Origin: a virus | Virus record (IMG/VR): IMGVR_UViG_3300023292_000021 | Location: 1 to 39,664 of that record | Strand: one strand, 5' to 3' | Length of the DNA stretch: 39,664 nt | Part shown: piece after piece, positions 14,780-28,342 of the stretch | How the letters are laid out: each line of letters opens with the position of its first letter | Numbering within the stretch: position 1 is the first letter of the stretch | Translations under genes and position numbers: made by a program | Notes under the pieces: generated by a model | Told to the model about the DNA's origin: nothing | The model's input: only the letters and a program-made list of their open reading frames with translations | Databases searched by the model: none

Positions 14780-14852
14780 GGAAAAGTAACTCAAAAGGTA
14801 GAGTACCGAGCATTGCGACTAGGTCATGGGGGTTCGAATCCCCCCTTTTTCC
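14780..14852 (+). tRNA. tRNA-like gene with an 8-nt anticodon loop
   Basis: Acceptor GGAAAAG pairs with CTTTTTC or TTTTTCC near 14845-14852. The D arm is ACTC / GAGT (14789-14792 / 14801-14804), and the T arm GGGGG-TTCGAAT-CCCCC (14828-14844) is perfect. The anticodon arm is unusual: A-CCGAG (14805-14810) pairs with CTAGG-T (14819-14824) with one G-A mismatch and an 8-base loop CATTGCGA. Reading U33 at 14813 gives TGC, at 14814 gives GCG. Eight-base loops occur in frameshift-suppressor tRNAs, but a degenerate tRNA or another tRNA-like RNA is equally possible. No CCA is encoded. Confidence 0.55.
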
Positions 14853-17107: not shown

Positions 17108-17239
17108 ATGCTAATAAAAACATCAGAAACGGTGATAATTGTTCTCGAGGATCTTTTAAAAGAATGTTCCGGTGGCGGAAAATTGCGGGAACTCATTCAG
17201 AAAAAGATCGAAGAGCTTAAAAAGTCGAATAAGATTTGA
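17108..17239 (+). CDS. Small helical protein, 43 aa
   Basis: ATG 17108 to TGA 17237-17239, which overlaps the -35 of cassette 4. It encodes two predicted helices, VIIVLEDLLKECS and LRELIQKKIEELKKS, separated by GGG. No family is recognised. It could be a small oligomerising or anti-host peptide. Confidence 0.5.
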   Translation: MLIKTSETVIIVLEDLLKECSGGGKLRELIQKKIEELKKSNKI

Positions 17240-17264
17240 CAAAACATTAAACAACCTTTAATAT
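17236..17264 (+). promoter_or_regulatory. Operator-promoter cassette 4 (recT)
   Basis: TTGACA (17236-17241), 17-base spacer, TAATAT (17259-17264). The palindrome has decayed to TTAAAC-AAC-CTTTAA, so this promoter may be less tightly controlled. The recT ATG lies 16 bases after the -10. Confidence 0.7.
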
Positions 17265-17280: not shown

Positions 17281-18087
17281 ATGACAGAAGAAAAATCGAT
17301 CACGTTAAAATCATTCTTGGAGGACACCGTGGCAATGAACAAAATGTCAGAAGTTTTGGGGAGGAATGCTCAAAGTTTTGTTACGACTATTCTGCAAATC
17401 GTGGCAATGAACGACTTGCTCAAAAAGGCAACCTTTGCTTCTGTTTATGGAGCGGCACTCACGGCGGCAACGATGAAGCTTCCAATTAATCCGAATTTGG
17501 GATTCGCATATATTGTCCCATACAACAACAGGAAGACGAAAAAACAGGAGGCGCAATTCCAAATGGGATGGAAGGGGTTTGTTCAACTGGCGCAAAGGAC
17601 GGGAGAATTCAAAAGCGTAAACACGGCGGAAATATACGAAAACCAATTCGAAAGCGTTGATCTGCTAACTGGAGAAATAAAACTAAAAAACGAAGCGCCA
17701 GTTGGTAAGATTGTTGGATATATCTCTCATTTTTCACTTACTAATGGATTTCAAAAATCTCTTTATGTGACAAAAGAAGAAATGGAAAAACACGCTAAAA
17801 AGTATTCACAAAGTTACAAAAAAGGATTTGGTGTTTGGGCAGATGGCGAAGACGGATTTAATGCGATGGCAAAAAAAACAGTCCTTAAACACTTACTGGC
17901 AAAATATGCTCCACTCTCAATCGAAATGCAAACAGCGATTCAGGCGGACCAAGCGGTTGTTGGCGAAAACGATTCTGAATTCGAATACCCAGACAATGAT
18001 CACGAAATCCCAAGCCCAGAAGAAAAAAAGAAAGAGCTTCGTGATAAAAAGAAGGACGGCGATTTGCTAATGCCCGAAATGCCATAA
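17281..18087 (+). CDS. recT: RecT-family single-strand annealing protein
   Basis: A 268-aa RecT/Beta-like recombinase. Key segments are GAALTAATMKLPINPNLGFA, the diagnostic LPINPNLGFAYIVPYN core of the RecT family, and KKQEAQFQMGWKGFVQLAQR. The C-terminal half includes AMAKKTVLKHLLAKYAPLS, the RecT terminal helix. The last 40 residues are acidic and disordered, a probable tail for a single-strand-binding partner. The adjacent nuclease-FtsK gene would supply the exonuclease function that RecE or lambda Exo performs elsewhere. Acts in homologous repair and replication intermediates. Confidence 0.9.
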   Translation: MTEEKSITLKSFLEDTVAMNKMSEVLGRNAQSFVTTILQIVAMNDLLKKATFASVYGAALTAATMKLPINPNLGFAYIVPYNNRKTKKQEAQFQMGWKGFVQLAQRTGEFKSVNTAEIYENQFESVDLLTGEIKLKNEAPVGKIVGYISHFSLTNGFQKSLYVTKEEMEKHAKKYSQSYKKGFGVWADGEDGFNAMAKKTVLKHLLAKYAPLSIEMQTAIQADQAVVGENDSEFEYPDNDHEIPSPEEKKKELRDKKKDGDLLMPEMP

Positions 18088-18092
18088 AAGAG

Positions 18093-18121
18093 TTGACTAT
18101 GCATTAAACATCGTTTAAGAT
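18093..18121 (+). promoter_or_regulatory. Operator-promoter cassette 5 (nuclease-FtsK fusion)
   Basis: TTGACT (18093-18098), 17-base spacer, TAAGAT (18116-18121), with a perfect TTAAAC-ATC-GTTTAA palindrome. The ATG follows 13 bases after the -10. The fusion gene thus has its own promoter, separate from recT. Confidence 0.8.
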
Positions 18122-18134
18122 AATTAAAACAAAA

Positions 18135-20129
18135 ATGAATCTATTTAAAGAATTGTCACCGGAAAAATACGAGGAAGTCGCAAGTAATTTTTTGATTAAC
18201 AGTTTCAGTTATTCTGGACTTTCTACTTTTTCTCGGCACGAAAAAGTTTTTGAAAAGGAATATATTTATGGAGAATATGGGAAGAAATCAGCGTCTTCGG
18301 TTGGTGGGAATGCCTATCACAATGCGCTTGAACAATTCTTTTTAAACAAAAAAGACGGAAAAAAAGACTTAGATCTTGTTGATTTGCAACAAATAGCTTT
18401 TGATTATGTCGATTCTATTACGGCCAATAAGTGGAAGATCCAAAAAACAACTCCATCTGTGGAGGATTGTATTATTGAAGCAAATAAAATTGTCACAAAG
18501 ACTTTGGAGAATTTTCTCGGGGAGCTAGAAGCTTATGAAGATCTTGAAATTCTCGAAGTAGAGTTGAAATTTGATGAATTTGTGACAATCAATGGTGTTG
18601 ACATTCCTCTGCCAATTCACGGGAAAATTGACATAGTTGCAAAGACGAAGGACGGAAAAATTGTTGTGATAGATCATAAATCAGGAAAAAAACACACAGC
18701 AGAAAGTGATCAGCAGTTTGTTTATTGCAAACAGGGGATTTTATACGTCCTCGGATATGAAGCTTTTTCTGGTAGAAAAGTTGACGAGTTTTGGTTCGTT
18801 GAAAACAAAATTTCGAAATACAAAAACGGAGCGAAACAACTCCAAGTACTGAAAACAGAAATAAATGATGACACTAGAAAATTGTACGAAGCGCAAGTGT
18901 ACGAGCCTTTGCGGAGAATGCTTGAGGCGACCAGCAATCCTGATTATGTTTATTTGATCAACGACGGCGACAACTGGACAAGTAAAGCAGAAATTTACGA
19001 ATTTTGGGCCAAGACAATGATTGCCGAAATTGAAGAGTTCAACGTTCCAGAAAACAAACGAGACATAATTGCAAAACGACTTAATAAAATCAGAGATGCT
19101 TCTTTGGTAGCAATTTCTCCAAAAGTTATCAAAACTTTTCAAAAAAATGCATCAGCTTTTATCACTTATGATTTATCAAACAAAAACATGACAAACCAAG
19201 AAAAAATTCAGCACCGGCTTCGATCTTTCAATCTTCCTGCACAAGTGGCGCATAAATTCGAAGGGTACTCGAGCGATACTTACTTGCTCGAAATACAGGC
19301 TGGAACAAAACTCACCGCTATTTACAAGCACAGATTGGACATTGCGAACGCTCTCGGAGTCGAGAGCGTTAGGATGGAATCAAATCTGTTTGTCTACGAA
19401 GGAAAATCTTATTTTGTTATCGAAGCATCGAAAAAAAGAGAGAAAGATTTATTTTTTGACGAAAAATATTTAAAAGATAGTAAAATTCCGGTTGGATTGA
19501 ATAATTTTGGAGAAACTGTGGTTTGGGATTTGAAAAACGAATCGACCCCAAATGCACTAGTTTGCGGATCAGTCGGGTCCGGGAAATCTGTTTGGCTTCG
19601 GAGCACGATAGAGTATGCCAAGCTTTGCGGAGTAGAGAATTTTGTAATTTTTGACCCGAAGTTTGAGTTTTTGGAATATAAAAAAGAATCTAACTTTGAA
19701 GTTTTCAATGAGATCGAAGATTGCCAAATAAAAATGATGCTGCTTATTGATGATATGGAGAGAAGAATAAGAAATCACGAGAAAAAAATGACGATGGTAA
19801 TTTTTGACGAATTTGCCGATGCGGTTTTGCAATCTAAAATTAAAGGAGGTTCGAACATTGAAGAATCAATGAGAATGCTTTTGCAAAAAGGTCGATCGTC
19901 AGGATTTAGAGTAATCGCCGCGACTCAAAGGGCATCAGTCAAAGTTATCACCGGAGATGCTAAAGTGAATTTCCCGGTTCAAATTTGCTTCCGGGTGCCA
20001 AAGGAAATCGATTCAAAAGTTGTTCTTGATGAGCCAGGGGCAGAAAGTTTGGCCGGGCAGGGGGACGGATTAATCAACAGCCCAGAGTATCCGAGCTTAA
20101 TAAGGTTTCAAGGTTTTTTTATTAAATAA
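18135..20129 (+). CDS. PD-(D/E)XK nuclease fused to an FtsK-type DNA translocase
   Basis: A 664-aa single polypeptide with two enzyme halves. Residues 25-260 carry a RecB/Cas4-like nuclease: His62 in GNAYHNALEQFF, Asp166 in HGKIDIVAK, Asp180 and Lys182 in VVIDHKSG, and a Gln...Tyr helix (QFVYCKQGILYVLGY). Residues of about 345-660 carry an FtsK/SpoIIIE-like module: a beta domain (YLLEIQAGTKLTAIYKHRLD), Walker A GSVGSGKS (478-485), Walker B VIFDEF with Asp558 and Glu559, and the sensor ATQRASVKVITGDAKVNF. The nuclease may degrade one strand and the motor could pull DNA. The arrangement parallels HerA-NurA end-resection pairs but is one gene, next to RecT. Domain reading is firm; substrate and direction are inferred. 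Confidence 0.85.
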   Translation: MNLFKELSPEKYEEVASNFLINSFSYSGLSTFSRHEKVFEKEYIYGEYGKKSASSVGGNAYHNALEQFFLNKKDGKKDLDLVDLQQIAFDYVDSITANKWKIQKTTPSVEDCIIEANKIVTKTLENFLGELEAYEDLEILEVELKFDEFVTINGVDIPLPIHGKIDIVAKTKDGKIVVIDHKSGKKHTAESDQQFVYCKQGILYVLGYEAFSGRKVDEFWFVENKISKYKNGAKQLQVLKTEINDDTRKLYEAQVYEPLRRMLEATSNPDYVYLINDGDNWTSKAEIYEFWAKTMIAEIEEFNVPENKRDIIAKRLNKIRDASLVAISPKVIKTFQKNASAFITYDLSNKNMTNQEKIQHRLRSFNLPAQVAHKFEGYSSDTYLLEIQAGTKLTAIYKHRLDIANALGVESVRMESNLFVYEGKSYFVIEASKKREKDLFFDEKYLKDSKIPVGLNNFGETVVWDLKNESTPNALVCGSVGSGKSVWLRSTIEYAKLCGVENFVIFDPKFEFLEYKKESNFEVFNEIEDCQIKMMLLIDDMERRIRNHEKKMTMVIFDEFADAVLQSKIKGGSNIEESMRMLLQKGRSSGFRVIAATQRASVKVITGDAKVNFPVQICFRVPKEIDSKVVLDEPGAESLAGQGDGLINSPEYPSLIRFQGFFIK

Positions 20130-21429: not shown

Positions 21430-22215
21430 ATGAAAAACAACATTTCTTATTTCCGGCACGAAACGGAATCATACAGAAACGTAAAATTCAAAACACTTCG
21501 GTTAAAATTCGGATGGGAGGGAGAAGGGCGTTTCTGGGCATTAAACAGCATGATTGCAGATTCAAACGATTGTCGGCTAGATTTGGGAAAGAAGTTCGTG
21601 AAAGCCGACGTGGCGACAGAGTTAGGGATCTCGCTTGAAGAGTTTGATGAATTTATTGAATATTTAAAAGACGAGTGCGAACTTCTTGTTTCAGATGGCG
21701 ATACGATAACAACAAAAGATGTTCAGGAGGTTTTTCAACAGGTAATGAAAAAGAGGAATCGTGATCGAAGAACTTATGAAAAGACAGCGAAAGCGATTGT
21801 TCCGAGTGTGGAAACTAAAAAACCGATAGCGGAAAAGAAGAAATCAGCAACGAAAACAATAAAAAAGACAATTGAAAAAGGACTAATGCTTTTAATAGAA
21901 ACAGATTACCCGCGAGTAAACAAATTAAAATCTCCACTGACTGAGGATCAAGCAAAAAAACTTGAGACTGAGTTTGAGCCAGAAGCAATTCTTGATGTTC
22001 TTTCGGGAATGGAAAACAAGGCGGATCTTTTGAAGAAATATACTTCGGCAAATTTAACGATGAGAAATTGGCTGGATAGAAGGGGGACCGGAAAAAAAAC
22101 AGATTGGGAAAACTTATCCCTAGAAGAAGGAAAAAAAATGTTATCAGATCCAAAGAGTGCAGAGCTTTTACAACTTCGTAATCCTGAATTATTTTTCAAA
22201 TGTCAAAATCAATAG
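21430..22215 (+). CDS. Replication initiator / helicase loader (Lin1244-like N-terminus)
   Basis: A 261-aa protein with the DUF4373/Lin1244-like N-terminus of phage replication proteins. It has the start (NNISYFRHETESYRNVK), and KFGWEGEGRFWALNSMIAD with the ELGISLEEFDEFIEYLKDECELL winged-helix part. A Lys/Thr-rich linker follows, then a DnaD-like C-terminal part (NLTMRNWLDRR). The gene overlaps the DnaB-like helicase by 16 bases. It would recruit the helicase to the phage origin. Confidence 0.75.
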   Translation: MKNNISYFRHETESYRNVKFKTLRLKFGWEGEGRFWALNSMIADSNDCRLDLGKKFVKADVATELGISLEEFDEFIEYLKDECELLVSDGDTITTKDVQEVFQQVMKKRNRDRRTYEKTAKAIVPSVETKKPIAEKKKSATKTIKKTIEKGLMLLIETDYPRVNKLKSPLTEDQAKKLETEFEPEAILDVLSGMENKADLLKKYTSANLTMRNWLDRRGTGKKTDWENLSLEEGKKMLSDPKSAELLQLRNPELFFKCQNQ

Positions 22216-23465
22216 AATCCGAGCAGGCGGTTATCGGATGTGCTTTGCTGGACGGAAAAGTTGTTTCAGCGATTCTAGTGATATTAAATTCTGATGATTT
22301 TTTGGATAATAATTGTGTTGATGTTTTTGAGGCAATTTCTTTCTTGAAAGAAAAAGGCGAGGTTGTTGACTTGGTGACGGTGGCGACTCGAATGAAAGAG
22401 GCAAAAACTCTTGATCGAGTCGGTGGACCGGAGTTTTTGGCAGTGCTCCAAAACACCGTTCCGCTTTCTTCTCATTACGAACAATATGCAAAAAAGGTGA
22501 AACACTTTTCTTTTTTGAGAAAGTTGGTAAAGGCCGGACTGGAAATAAAATCAATCGGAGAAAATTCTGAAGAAGATGTTTTGGGGACAATTAAAAAAGT
22601 AAAAGAAGCCTTTGCCGAAACTTATAAATGTGCGGCGATTCTGGCCGGAGAACCTCCAGAAGATAAAACAGACCCGATTGACAAGCCAAACACAGGGCTT
22701 TCGTGGGGGACAAAAGATTTGGATTCAACAATAACTCCGATCGAGCGGCATCATTTTATTGTTTTGGCCGCCGAAACAAAATCAGGTAAAACTGCGTACC
22801 TTTTCGATTTGGCAATTAAAAACGCGGTAAACAAAAAAATTCTTTACATAACTTTAGAAATGTCCGGTACTCAAATTCTTTCTAGGATCGCTCGGAATTT
22901 CTCGGGAATAACAAAAGATCAATGGAGGGAGCGGAAAAAAATCCCAGAAGGGCAATACAGAGCTTATAAATCTAAAATCGATGAAATAAAATCAATCGAA
23001 GGGCTTGTGGCCTGTGGACTTAAAGACGCATCTATCCAGAGTATTTTTCGAAAAATAAAAAAAGAGAAAGCTGATCTGGTCGTTGTTGATAATATGGGAC
23101 TGATCGAAAACACGGAAAACCTGAGCCCAACTGATCACGAAACAAAGCTTTCGGCCGCTTTCGCTAGATTCTGTCATGAGCAGAATACGCCAGTTGTTTT
23201 AGTTCACCATTTCAAAAAAGGGGATGAAACAAAAAGCAACGCGCCGAGGGGATTAAATGCAATCCGGGGAAGTTCAAAAATCACTCACGATGCGGACACC
23301 GTGATTTTGTGCCACCGGACAAGATCGAATAATTATGATCTAACAAAAAAAGAGAAGGCACAATTCACGATAGTTGAAGCTGCTGATCGAGATTTCGGCA
23401 CCGGCGGAGTCAAAACAGTTTATTTTCATAAAGGAACTTTCCTGGACGAATATCCAGACGAATAA
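22200..23465 (+). CDS. dnaB: DnaB-like replicative helicase
   Basis: A 421-aa DnaB-family helicase. The N-terminal domain (SIESEQAVIGCALLDGK; VGGPEFLAVLQNTVP) interacts with primase. The RecA core has Walker A AETKSGKT (Glu192-Thr198), in which the usual first Gly is replaced by Ala. LYITLEMSG is the typical second strand, Walker B is ADLVVVDNMGLI, and VVLVHHFKK is motif H3. The C-terminal ADRDFGTGG is the Arg-finger segment (RNG in canonical DnaB). Directly coupled to the initiator. Confidence 0.9.
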   Translation: MSKSIESEQAVIGCALLDGKVVSAILVILNSDDFLDNNCVDVFEAISFLKEKGEVVDLVTVATRMKEAKTLDRVGGPEFLAVLQNTVPLSSHYEQYAKKVKHFSFLRKLVKAGLEIKSIGENSEEDVLGTIKKVKEAFAETYKCAAILAGEPPEDKTDPIDKPNTGLSWGTKDLDSTITPIERHHFIVLAAETKSGKTAYLFDLAIKNAVNKKILYITLEMSGTQILSRIARNFSGITKDQWRERKKIPEGQYRAYKSKIDEIKSIEGLVACGLKDASIQSIFRKIKKEKADLVVVDNMGLIENTENLSPTDHETKLSAAFARFCHEQNTPVVLVHHFKKGDETKSNAPRGLNAIRGSSKITHDADTVILCHRTRSNNYDLTKKEKAQFTIVEAADRDFGTGGVKTVYFHKGTFLDEYPDE

Positions 23466-27163: not shown

Positions 27164-28342
27164 ATGAATCTTTCAGATCTAAAAAAGAACCCGAAAAACC
27201 CAAGAACAATCACGAAAGAAATGCTCGAAAAGCTGAAAAACTCAATAAAGAATTTTGAAAGAATGCTCGTGATTCGGCCAATGATTATTGACGAAAACAA
27301 TGTAATTCTTGGCGGGAATCAGCGATTTAATGCCCTAGAAGCTTTAGGATATGAAGAAATCCCTGACACTTGGGTAAAAAAAGAGGAAGGATTGACAGAA
27401 GAACAAAAAAGGGAGTTTGTTGTAAAAGATAACGTTGGGTTTGGGGCATGGGATTTTGAACAACTTGCGAATGATTATTCGATCGAGGAACTTGAGGATT
27501 GGGGGATGGAGAACATTGTTTTCCCGGAAATAGTCGAAGATGGCAAAACGGATCCAAACGAGGTTCCTGAGCCGCCAAAAATTGCAAAAACAGTTCGAGG
27601 GGATTTATACGAACTTGGTGGACATCGTGTTCTTTGTGGAGATAGCACAATTGTTGCTGACGTTGAAAAGCTGATGGGTGGAAAAAAAGCAAAAATGTTG
27701 CACACTGACCCTCCCTATGGTGTTGATTGCGAAGGAATAGAAAACGACAACATGAAAGGAGAAAAATTAAGAGAATTTATAACCAATGCTCTTTCAAATG
27801 CTTTTGTGTTTCTTGAGGGAGGATCTAATGTTTATATTTGGCACGCTGATATTCATTCCTACGAATTTATCGGAGCAATGAGAGACTCGGGATTTGTTCA
27901 GGCAAAACCCCCTGTGATTCAGTGGGTTAAGGATCGTTTAGTCCTAAGTCGCGGAGATTATCACTCGAGAAACGAGCCATGTTTATACGGATGGAAGAAA
28001 GGAAAAAACAGAAAAAGAGTTGAGGATAGAACACAGGACACAATATGGGAGTTCCCAAAACCAGAAAAATCAGATTCACATCCAACAATGAAGCCCGTTG
28101 AGCTTTGTGAAAGAGCAATTACAAACAGCTCTGAAAAAGGATGGATTGTTCTTGATCTTTTTCTTGGCGCTGGATCAACTACTATTGCTTGCCAAAAAAC
28201 CAAAAGAAAGTGTTATGGAATGGAAATAGACGAGAAATATTGCGACGTGATCGTTCAACGTTGGTTAAATTTTACAGAAGAAACAGAATTCAAATTAAAC
28301 GGAAAAAAAATAACAAAAGCAAAATGGGAATCCTCGAAATAA
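27164..28342 (+). CDS. ParB-like domain plus DNA methyltransferase (N4/N6-type)
   Basis: A 392-aa fusion common in phages. Residues 1-70 are a ParB/Srx-like domain (LKKNPKNPRTITKEML, VILGGNQRFNALEAL). The methyltransferase has DPPYGV (182-187), the catalytic DPPY motif of amino-methyltransferases acting on adenine N6 or cytosine N4. Near the C-terminus VLDLFLGAGSTT is the SAM-binding FxGxG loop, in the permuted motif order with DPPY first. It would methylate the phage DNA and so protect it from host restriction. Recognition sequence cannot be read. SAM would come from the metK gene three genes downstream. Confidence 0.85.
   Translation: MNLSDLKKNPKNPRTITKEMLEKLKNSIKNFERMLVIRPMIIDENNVILGGNQRFNALEALGYEEIPDTWVKKEEGLTEEQKREFVVKDNVGFGAWDFEQLANDYSIEELEDWGMENIVFPEIVEDGKTDPNEVPEPPKIAKTVRGDLYELGGHRVLCGDSTIVADVEKLMGGKKAKMLHTDPPYGVDCEGIENDNMKGEKLREFITNALSNAFVFLEGGSNVYIWHADIHSYEFIGAMRDSGFVQAKPPVIQWVKDRLVLSRGDYHSRNEPCLYGWKKGKNRKRVEDRTQDTIWEFPKPEKSDSHPTMKPVELCERAITNSSEKGWIVLDLFLGAGSTTIACQKTKRKCYGMEIDEKYCDVIVQRWLNFTEETEFKLNGKKITKAKWESSK

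Follow-up and report, generated by a model that had tools for sequence, protein, structure and literature searches.

A phage-encoded nuclease–FtsK motor fusion beside exchangeable annealing proteins with a short common C-terminal tail

The fusion gene and its surroundings

The stretch of phage DNA that was analysed (IMG/VR record IMGVR_UViG_3300023292_000021; all of its 39,664 nucleotides are called the window here) carries a gene for a RecT annealing protein followed by a single long gene in which a nuclease is joined to an FtsK-type motor. The features of the window referred to below are as follows, with the basis of each in brackets:

17236-17264, + strand: sigma70-like promoter of recT, with an operator-like site at 17246-17262 (pattern match)
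17281-18087, + strand: RecT annealing protein, the partner in the window, 268 aa (PF03837, E 1e-42; phrog_148, E 4e-69; TIGR00616, above cut-off)
18019-18084, + strand: C-terminal tail of RecT, EEKKKELRDKKKDGDLLMPEMP, ending in the common [LM]P motif
18093-18121, + strand: sigma70-like promoter of the fusion gene, TTGACT-17-TAAGAT, with an operator-like palindrome at 18103-18119 in the spacer (pattern match)
18135-20129, + strand: nuclease-FtsK fusion gene, 664 aa (open frame, Pfam/PHROG, alignment, AlphaFold)
18204-18923, + strand: PD-(D/E)XK nuclease domain of RecB/Cas4 type, aa 24-263 (PF12705, E 1e-13; invariant motifs; Foldseek)
19179-19388, + strand: FtsK alpha domain, aa 349-418 (PF17854, E 1e-6; aligns with FtsK motor structures)
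19482-20126, + strand: FtsK beta (RecA-like) motor domain, aa 450-664 (PF01580; Z 30 to 6t8b; invariant residues)
21430-22215, + strand: replication-initiation-like protein (Lin1244_N, phrog_2562)
22200-23465, + strand: DnaB-type helicase (DnaB N and C domains)
14126, 14725, 15335, 17246, 18103, 21402, 23692, 27122 and 30838: operator-like sites

The original prediction, made from the letters of the DNA, was that a continuous frame here encodes both a nuclease and an FtsK-type half, and this is borne out by a stop-free single frame of 664 residues with Pfam matches in both halves. In the Pfam search, PDDEXK_1 was found in the N-terminal half (residues 24-263, E 1e-13; PF12705 score of 52 bits against a cut-off of 22), and FtsK_alpha (349-418, E 1e-6) and FtsK_SpoIIIE (from residue 450, E 7e-9) in the C-terminal half, all of them exceeding the curated cut-offs. 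In PHROGs, the exonuclease families 69 and 1218 correspond to the N-terminal half and the FtsK families 1358 and 3551 to the C-terminal one, and no single family in Pfam, PHROGs, NCBIfam or PADLOC contains both. The residues named earlier (Asp166, Asp180, Lys182, Walker A at 478-485 and Asp558/Glu559) are all correct, and to them are added features that had been overlooked, i.e., GxxxH at 58-62, QxxxY at 200-204 and the FtsK alpha domain. The nuclease motifs thus comprise GxxxH, D166, D180-H-K182 and QxxxY, while those of the beta domain comprise Walker A, DE at 558-559 and TQRAS at 597-601. The alpha/beta motor spans residues 349-664, and the chain stops after the beta domain, with the nuclease as its N-terminus and with neither the gamma nor the membrane domain of FtsK.

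Both recT and the fusion gene are preceded by a promoter of the form TTGACW-17-TAnnnT with a palindrome-like operator between the hexamers. The near-palindromic operator, ATTAAA[CG]AT[CT]GTTTAAT, lies mostly between the -35 and -10 elements of sigma70-like promoters just upstream of genes. Since this pattern has 18 matches on both strands of the window, at about ten places, against 1.6 expected, the fusion gene's own promoter reflects a phage-wide regulon and nothing peculiar to this gene. In most relatives the fusion gene overlaps its upstream neighbour, leaving no space for a promoter between them. The separate, controlled promoter that had been predicted is present in the window, as one of several, and is not a feature of the family.

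Two further observations concern the rest of the window. The gene at 27164-28342 encodes a DNA methyltransferase whose N-terminal domain is ParB-like (phrog_498, phrog_620), and a tRNA T-arm-like element, GGGGGTTCGAATCCCCC, lies at 14828-14845; ARAGORN found no tRNA in the window, and the element is possibly a tRNA remnant or an attachment site.

Identity and conservation of the two halves

AlphaFold2 with a 104-row alignment gave a model with a mean pLDDT of 91.4 and a pTM of 0.57, in which both domains are well predicted and their mutual placement is not. In a VIA-align comparison, a first, shallower model matched the FtsK motor on double-stranded DNA (6t8b) with Z 30.0 over 304 residues (rmsd 2.8), the matched region being residues 352-664. 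FtsK chains scored Z 25-30 and HerA chains Z 19 or less. The closest solved structure by sequence is likewise an FtsK (2ius), and Foldseek with the better model placed FtsK first, with Dna2, AdnA, the Cas4-like ACE1 and RecE, which relate to the nuclease half, among the further matches. NurA was not among the Foldseek matches listed, where the nuclease half pairs with RecB-type folds. Because of these structure and sequence matches, the protein is identified as a RecB-family nuclease on an FtsK motor that is devoid of the FtsK membrane and gamma domains. The nuclease scores above the cut-off of the RecB/Cas4-type PD-(D/E)XK class (PF12705) and has all of its motifs, and the motor has the alpha and beta domains, the Walker A and B motifs and the fold of the FtsK/SpoIIIE class. 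Cas4 proper has conserved cysteines for an iron-sulphur cluster; the nuclease half has no invariant or near-invariant cysteine in the 104-row alignment.

The resemblance to HerA-NurA pairs that had been drawn earlier therefore needed refinement: the motor is of the FtsK type, with alpha and beta domains, and the nuclease is of the RecB/Cas4 type. HerA was ruled out as the identity of the motor by its lower Z scores and by the presence of the alpha domain, and a full FtsK orthologue was ruled out because the N-terminus is a nuclease and the chain ends at the beta domain. A recent capture of the motor from a host FtsK is unsupported, its identity to host and phage FtsK proteins being about equal (25-30%).

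Full-length relatives were collected from IMG/VR contigs (11 loci, then 78) and from GTDB genomes (35 loci). The carriers are phage contigs and bacterial genomes, mostly of Bacteroidota, and include isolates of Tenacibaculum, Chitinophaga, Dysgonomonas, Flavihumibacter, Pedobacter, Flavobacterium, Chryseobacterium and Wenyingzhuangia. The gene is sporadic: another 394 genomes, drawn from the same phylum as a Tenacibaculum carrier, contained no copy. No GenBank phage record matched over 80% of the fusion; among the matches listed, the motor part alone was covered, or nearly so, and the best-ranked phage record, MT839394, contains an ordinary FtsK. The nearest fusion (locus L090, 63% identity) comes from a MAG contig of low coverage that bears the label Gracilibacteria. 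In the window itself TGA is the stop codon in 11 of 39 genes examined, and the promoters are plain sigma70-like.

In an alignment (A7) of 104 homologues, with 48-63% identity to the window protein, H62, D166, D180, K182, Q200, Y204, G478, G483, K484, E559, Q598 and R599 are invariant, and H181 and D558 almost invariant. Apart from L075, which has a frameshift, and a few loci truncated at contig ends, all are single frames. With the catalytic residues of nuclease and motor kept in 104 homologues, and with more than 100 of them full-length in one frame, the gene is neither an assembly artefact or chance join of two genes nor a decayed gene, and both objections raised beforehand to the original prediction fall away. 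The nuclease-motor fusion is thus supported as genuine and conserved, with both halves intact and tied to a recombination module. As a separate observation, the motor of most homologues contains, behind the Walker B helix, a variable insertion that reaches about 40 residues (columns 585-622 of alignment A1); the window protein, in which its place would be after residue 571, has none.

Exchanged annealing partners and their common tail

The neighbourhood of RecT that had been noted holds: PF03837 is matched at 17281-18087, and recT ends 47 bp upstream of the fusion gene. A survey of genomes for the fusion next to recT, which had been proposed, showed that the fusion recurs and that RecT is only one of many partners. 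The gene directly upstream belongs to one of many clusters that are unrelated by BLAST, usually overlaps the start of the fusion gene by 1 or 4 bases, and encodes an annealing protein in nearly all loci, which is the gene adjacency of SynExo recombinases. The partners comprise RecT (PF03837), RecT-like (phrog_561), Bet-like, Erf (PF04404), Rad52 (PF04098) and Sak4-like proteins, the last being RecA relatives (AAA_24, phrog_1366 and, weakly, phrog_124). Several of these families are remote members of one Rad52-like superfamily (PMC9870868). Since Sak4 is of the RecA type, at least two unrelated folds are found among the partners. Three clusters have no assigned function, and all three are candidate new annealing-protein families by their position and tail:

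L004:7126-7998 and 29 other loci: phrog_3657, the largest of the three (30 loci), in annealing-protein position and with the tail
L051:5303-5983 and L003:5076-5669: two unnamed clusters, in annealing-protein position and with the tail

When the nine kinds of partner were mapped on a FastTree tree built from the fusion proteins, 33 changes were required, between the possible minimum of 8 and the mean of 63 for shuffled labels; the partners are therefore inherited for some time and yet often exchanged. A recent exchange is seen in loci L027 and L033, whose fusion genes are 98% identical in DNA next to unrelated partners; DNA identity in this pair sets in no earlier than the partner gene's final codons. 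A split form, with a separate nuclease or motor, was not found within about 3 kb in control loci. In locus L008 a gene for an HNH-type, homing-like endonuclease (L008:7477-8004) lies between the annealing gene and the fusion gene.

The partners have in common the last few residues of the chain. Leucine or methionine is second to last in 108 of 111 partner proteins, and 84 of the 111 end in [LM]P-COOH; about a quarter have LL, LM, LK or a similar end instead. Among other open reading frames of the same loci, 11 of 2126 end in [LM]P. The three partners that lack L/M at the second-last place are a frameshifted one whose other frame ends in GEEMP (L030), one ending in DLPS (L080), and the product of a locus with no annealing-type gene at the upstream position (L042). 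Locus L106, which gave no partner, is also frameshifted, and another of its frames ends in NDMP; L100 has its annealing gene one gene further up, with the end SPTLM. A basic KKxxL[KR] stretch precedes the tail in many partners, though not in Rad52 and in few Sak4 and Erf proteins.

Such an ending might be a by-product of the gene junction, produced by an overlapping ATGA start or by a conserved recombination joint, and have nothing to do with docking. The 1- or 4-base overlap of most pairs fits with this, as does the identity that begins within the partner's last codons in the recent exchange, and nevertheless the explanation is very improbable. Only 3 of 392 other genes that overlap the next gene end in [LM]P, which rules out overlap as such as the cause of the tail; the tail is kept where the genes are apart, i.e., in the window (47 bp and a promoter), in L118 (29 bp) and in L008, where the partner ends in KMEMP despite the intervening HNH gene; and both synonymous and Leu/Met codons vary. 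As the second-last residue is encoded by TTA, TTG, CTG, CTT, CTC, CTA or ATG, selection for the tail acts at the level of the protein.

As a control, viral contigs were searched for members of five partner families as such. An [LM]P end occurred in 34 of the 39 distinct proteins that had the fusion gene immediately behind them and in none of 313 that did not; a pooled Fisher test, which ignores relatedness, gave p ~8e-62 (78/105 against 0/313). On trees of the five families that leave out the last 50 residues of the chain, the fusion switched between present and absent 14, 10, 4, 2 and 3 times. A broader definition of the tail that was chosen post hoc ([LM] at the penultimate position followed by P, L, M, K, A or Y) fitted all 85 proteins that have the fusion and 12 of the 313 that lack it. 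About 18 of 20 independent contrasts on supported branches went in the expected direction and none in the opposite one; single families are mostly underpowered for significance by themselves.

This association bears on a second explanation, namely that the nuclease-motor does work with the annealing protein and the tail binds another companion of the module, such as the binding sites of phage or host SSB, the replisome or the clamp. Small proteins of SSB-like size in some fusion loci (L022, L037, L042, L067, L091 and L111) end in DDLPF or NDLPF, which the partner tails DLP and ELP resemble minus the last Phe; Sak4 of phage HK620 functions together with the tail of the corresponding SSB (PMC5928155); and when columns of the fusion were compared with tail type in a search for the receptor, nothing survived phylogenetic pairing, for which there were only nine contrasts. 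On the other side, the tail tracks a fusion directly downstream in five families and many lineages, and the hosts of most control phages have an SSB although these phages lack the tail. SSB tips require their terminal Phe, and the partner tails are without it. On balance a different companion is unlikely, although it is the best placed of the alternatives.

Two observations were made on annealing proteins without the fusion. Proteins of different families (L135, L306, L419, L434 and L473) have a similar Y.LT..Q terminal segment, which is perhaps the Red-beta-like C-terminal domain reported as common to families (PMC8093625). In many Sak4 relatives (L247-L268) the tip is acidic and SSB-like, with Phe as its final or near-final residue (EEF, EGF, DDDPFA).

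The motor might, finally, serve mainly as a translocase for another task, e.g., packaging, segregation of the phage genome or destruction of host or rival DNA, its linkage to annealing proteins being incidental. FtsK motors otherwise move chromosomes, and the motor shows weak similarity over part of its length to SspH, mad8 and HerA from defence systems. A task of this kind is quite improbable all the same, given the near-constant pairing with annealing proteins and their common tail, the absence of the gamma domain for sequence-directed movement, the ordinary terminase and portal of the window phage, and the lack of any defence model with both halves. A known anti-phage defence system was ruled out, the PADLOC matches being partial and confined to the motor.

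A proposed resection machine and its relation to known systems

Taken together, the fusion is probably an exonuclease that resects DNA ends with the energy of ATP and corresponds to RecE or lambda Exo in a SynExo pair; the annealing partner would dock on it by its short C-terminal tail. The C-terminal motor would form a ring round double-stranded DNA at an end and pull it, and the N-terminal RecB-type nuclease domains on the ring would degrade one strand during passage of the DNA, leaving single-stranded DNA. The annealing protein encoded upstream, RecT in the window, would be held on the machine through its flexible tail ending in [LM]P-COOH and be placed on the strand as it emerges. What we infer here is degradation at the expense of ATP, the ring, the polarity, the site at which the tail binds and the hand-over of single strands. 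Resection driven by ATP and hand-over to a tail-docked partner would be analogous to what has been described elsewhere: HerA with NurA performs ATP-driven end resection that produces 3' tails (PMC9960219), and dsDNA recombination by Red-beta requires its C-terminal region and the contact with the exonuclease (PMC5052646). The use of one nuclease-motor with unrelated annealing proteins, and their repeated swaps, would follow from a docking signal that consists of only a short tail. With slightly less assurance, we favor a plug-and-socket machine, in which the fusion offers a socket for a few-residue [LM]P-COOH tail that any annealing protein, be it Rad52-like, a RecA-like Sak4 or a member of the unnamed families, can acquire, allowing free exchange.

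If this is true, phages possess an annealing system whose exonuclease is motorised, and in nature one exonuclease serves many unrelated annealing proteins; phrog_3657 and the two further unnamed families would then be new annealing proteins, and tail and gene position would help to recognise others of this kind. RecE/RecT and lambda Red are without partner exchange, which limits recombineering outside E. coli, and a portable few-residue tail would offer a simple means of linking an annealing protein of choice with an enzyme that processes ends. Neither a motorised exonuclease of this kind nor the tail was found described in the literature searched, an absence that is no proof of novelty; the system is placed among the two-component (SynExo) recombinases, as a form with a motorised exonuclease.

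In RecE/RecT and lambda Exo/Red-beta, too, the genes for an exonuclease and an annealing protein are neighbours within a phage recombination module; the exonuclease belongs to the PD-(D/E)XK superfamily (RecE is among the fold matches of the fusion), and the C-terminal part of the annealing protein is implicated in the pairing. They differ in that the exonuclease of the fusion carries an FtsK motor and that its partners are exchanged among unrelated families with a few-residue tail as the common element, whereas RecE and lambda Exo do not swap annealing partners (PMC5052646). A Red-beta-like C-terminal domain is common to Firmicutes RecT, Erf and Sak4 groups (PMC8093625) and is therefore also a C-terminal module common to unrelated annealing-protein families, but it is folded, whereas that of the fusion partners is a few-residue tail tied to one nuclease.

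As to the motor, FtsK/SpoIIIE proteins have the same alpha and beta domains with all ATPase residues; the fusion is without their membrane and gamma domains and has a nuclease in place of their N-terminus. HerA-NurA resembles it in that a nuclease and a ring translocase from the FtsK-HerA superfamily act together in end resection (presumed for the fusion), in contrast to which the fusion is one polypeptide with an FtsK alpha/beta motor (Z 30 against 19 or less) and a RecB-type nuclease, is phage-borne and is linked to annealing proteins. AddAB, AdnAB and RecBCD also join a RecB-type nuclease to an ATP-driven motor, AdnA being a fold match of the fusion; their motor, however, is an SF1 helicase on single-stranded DNA, and that of the fusion an FtsK-type pump for double-stranded DNA.
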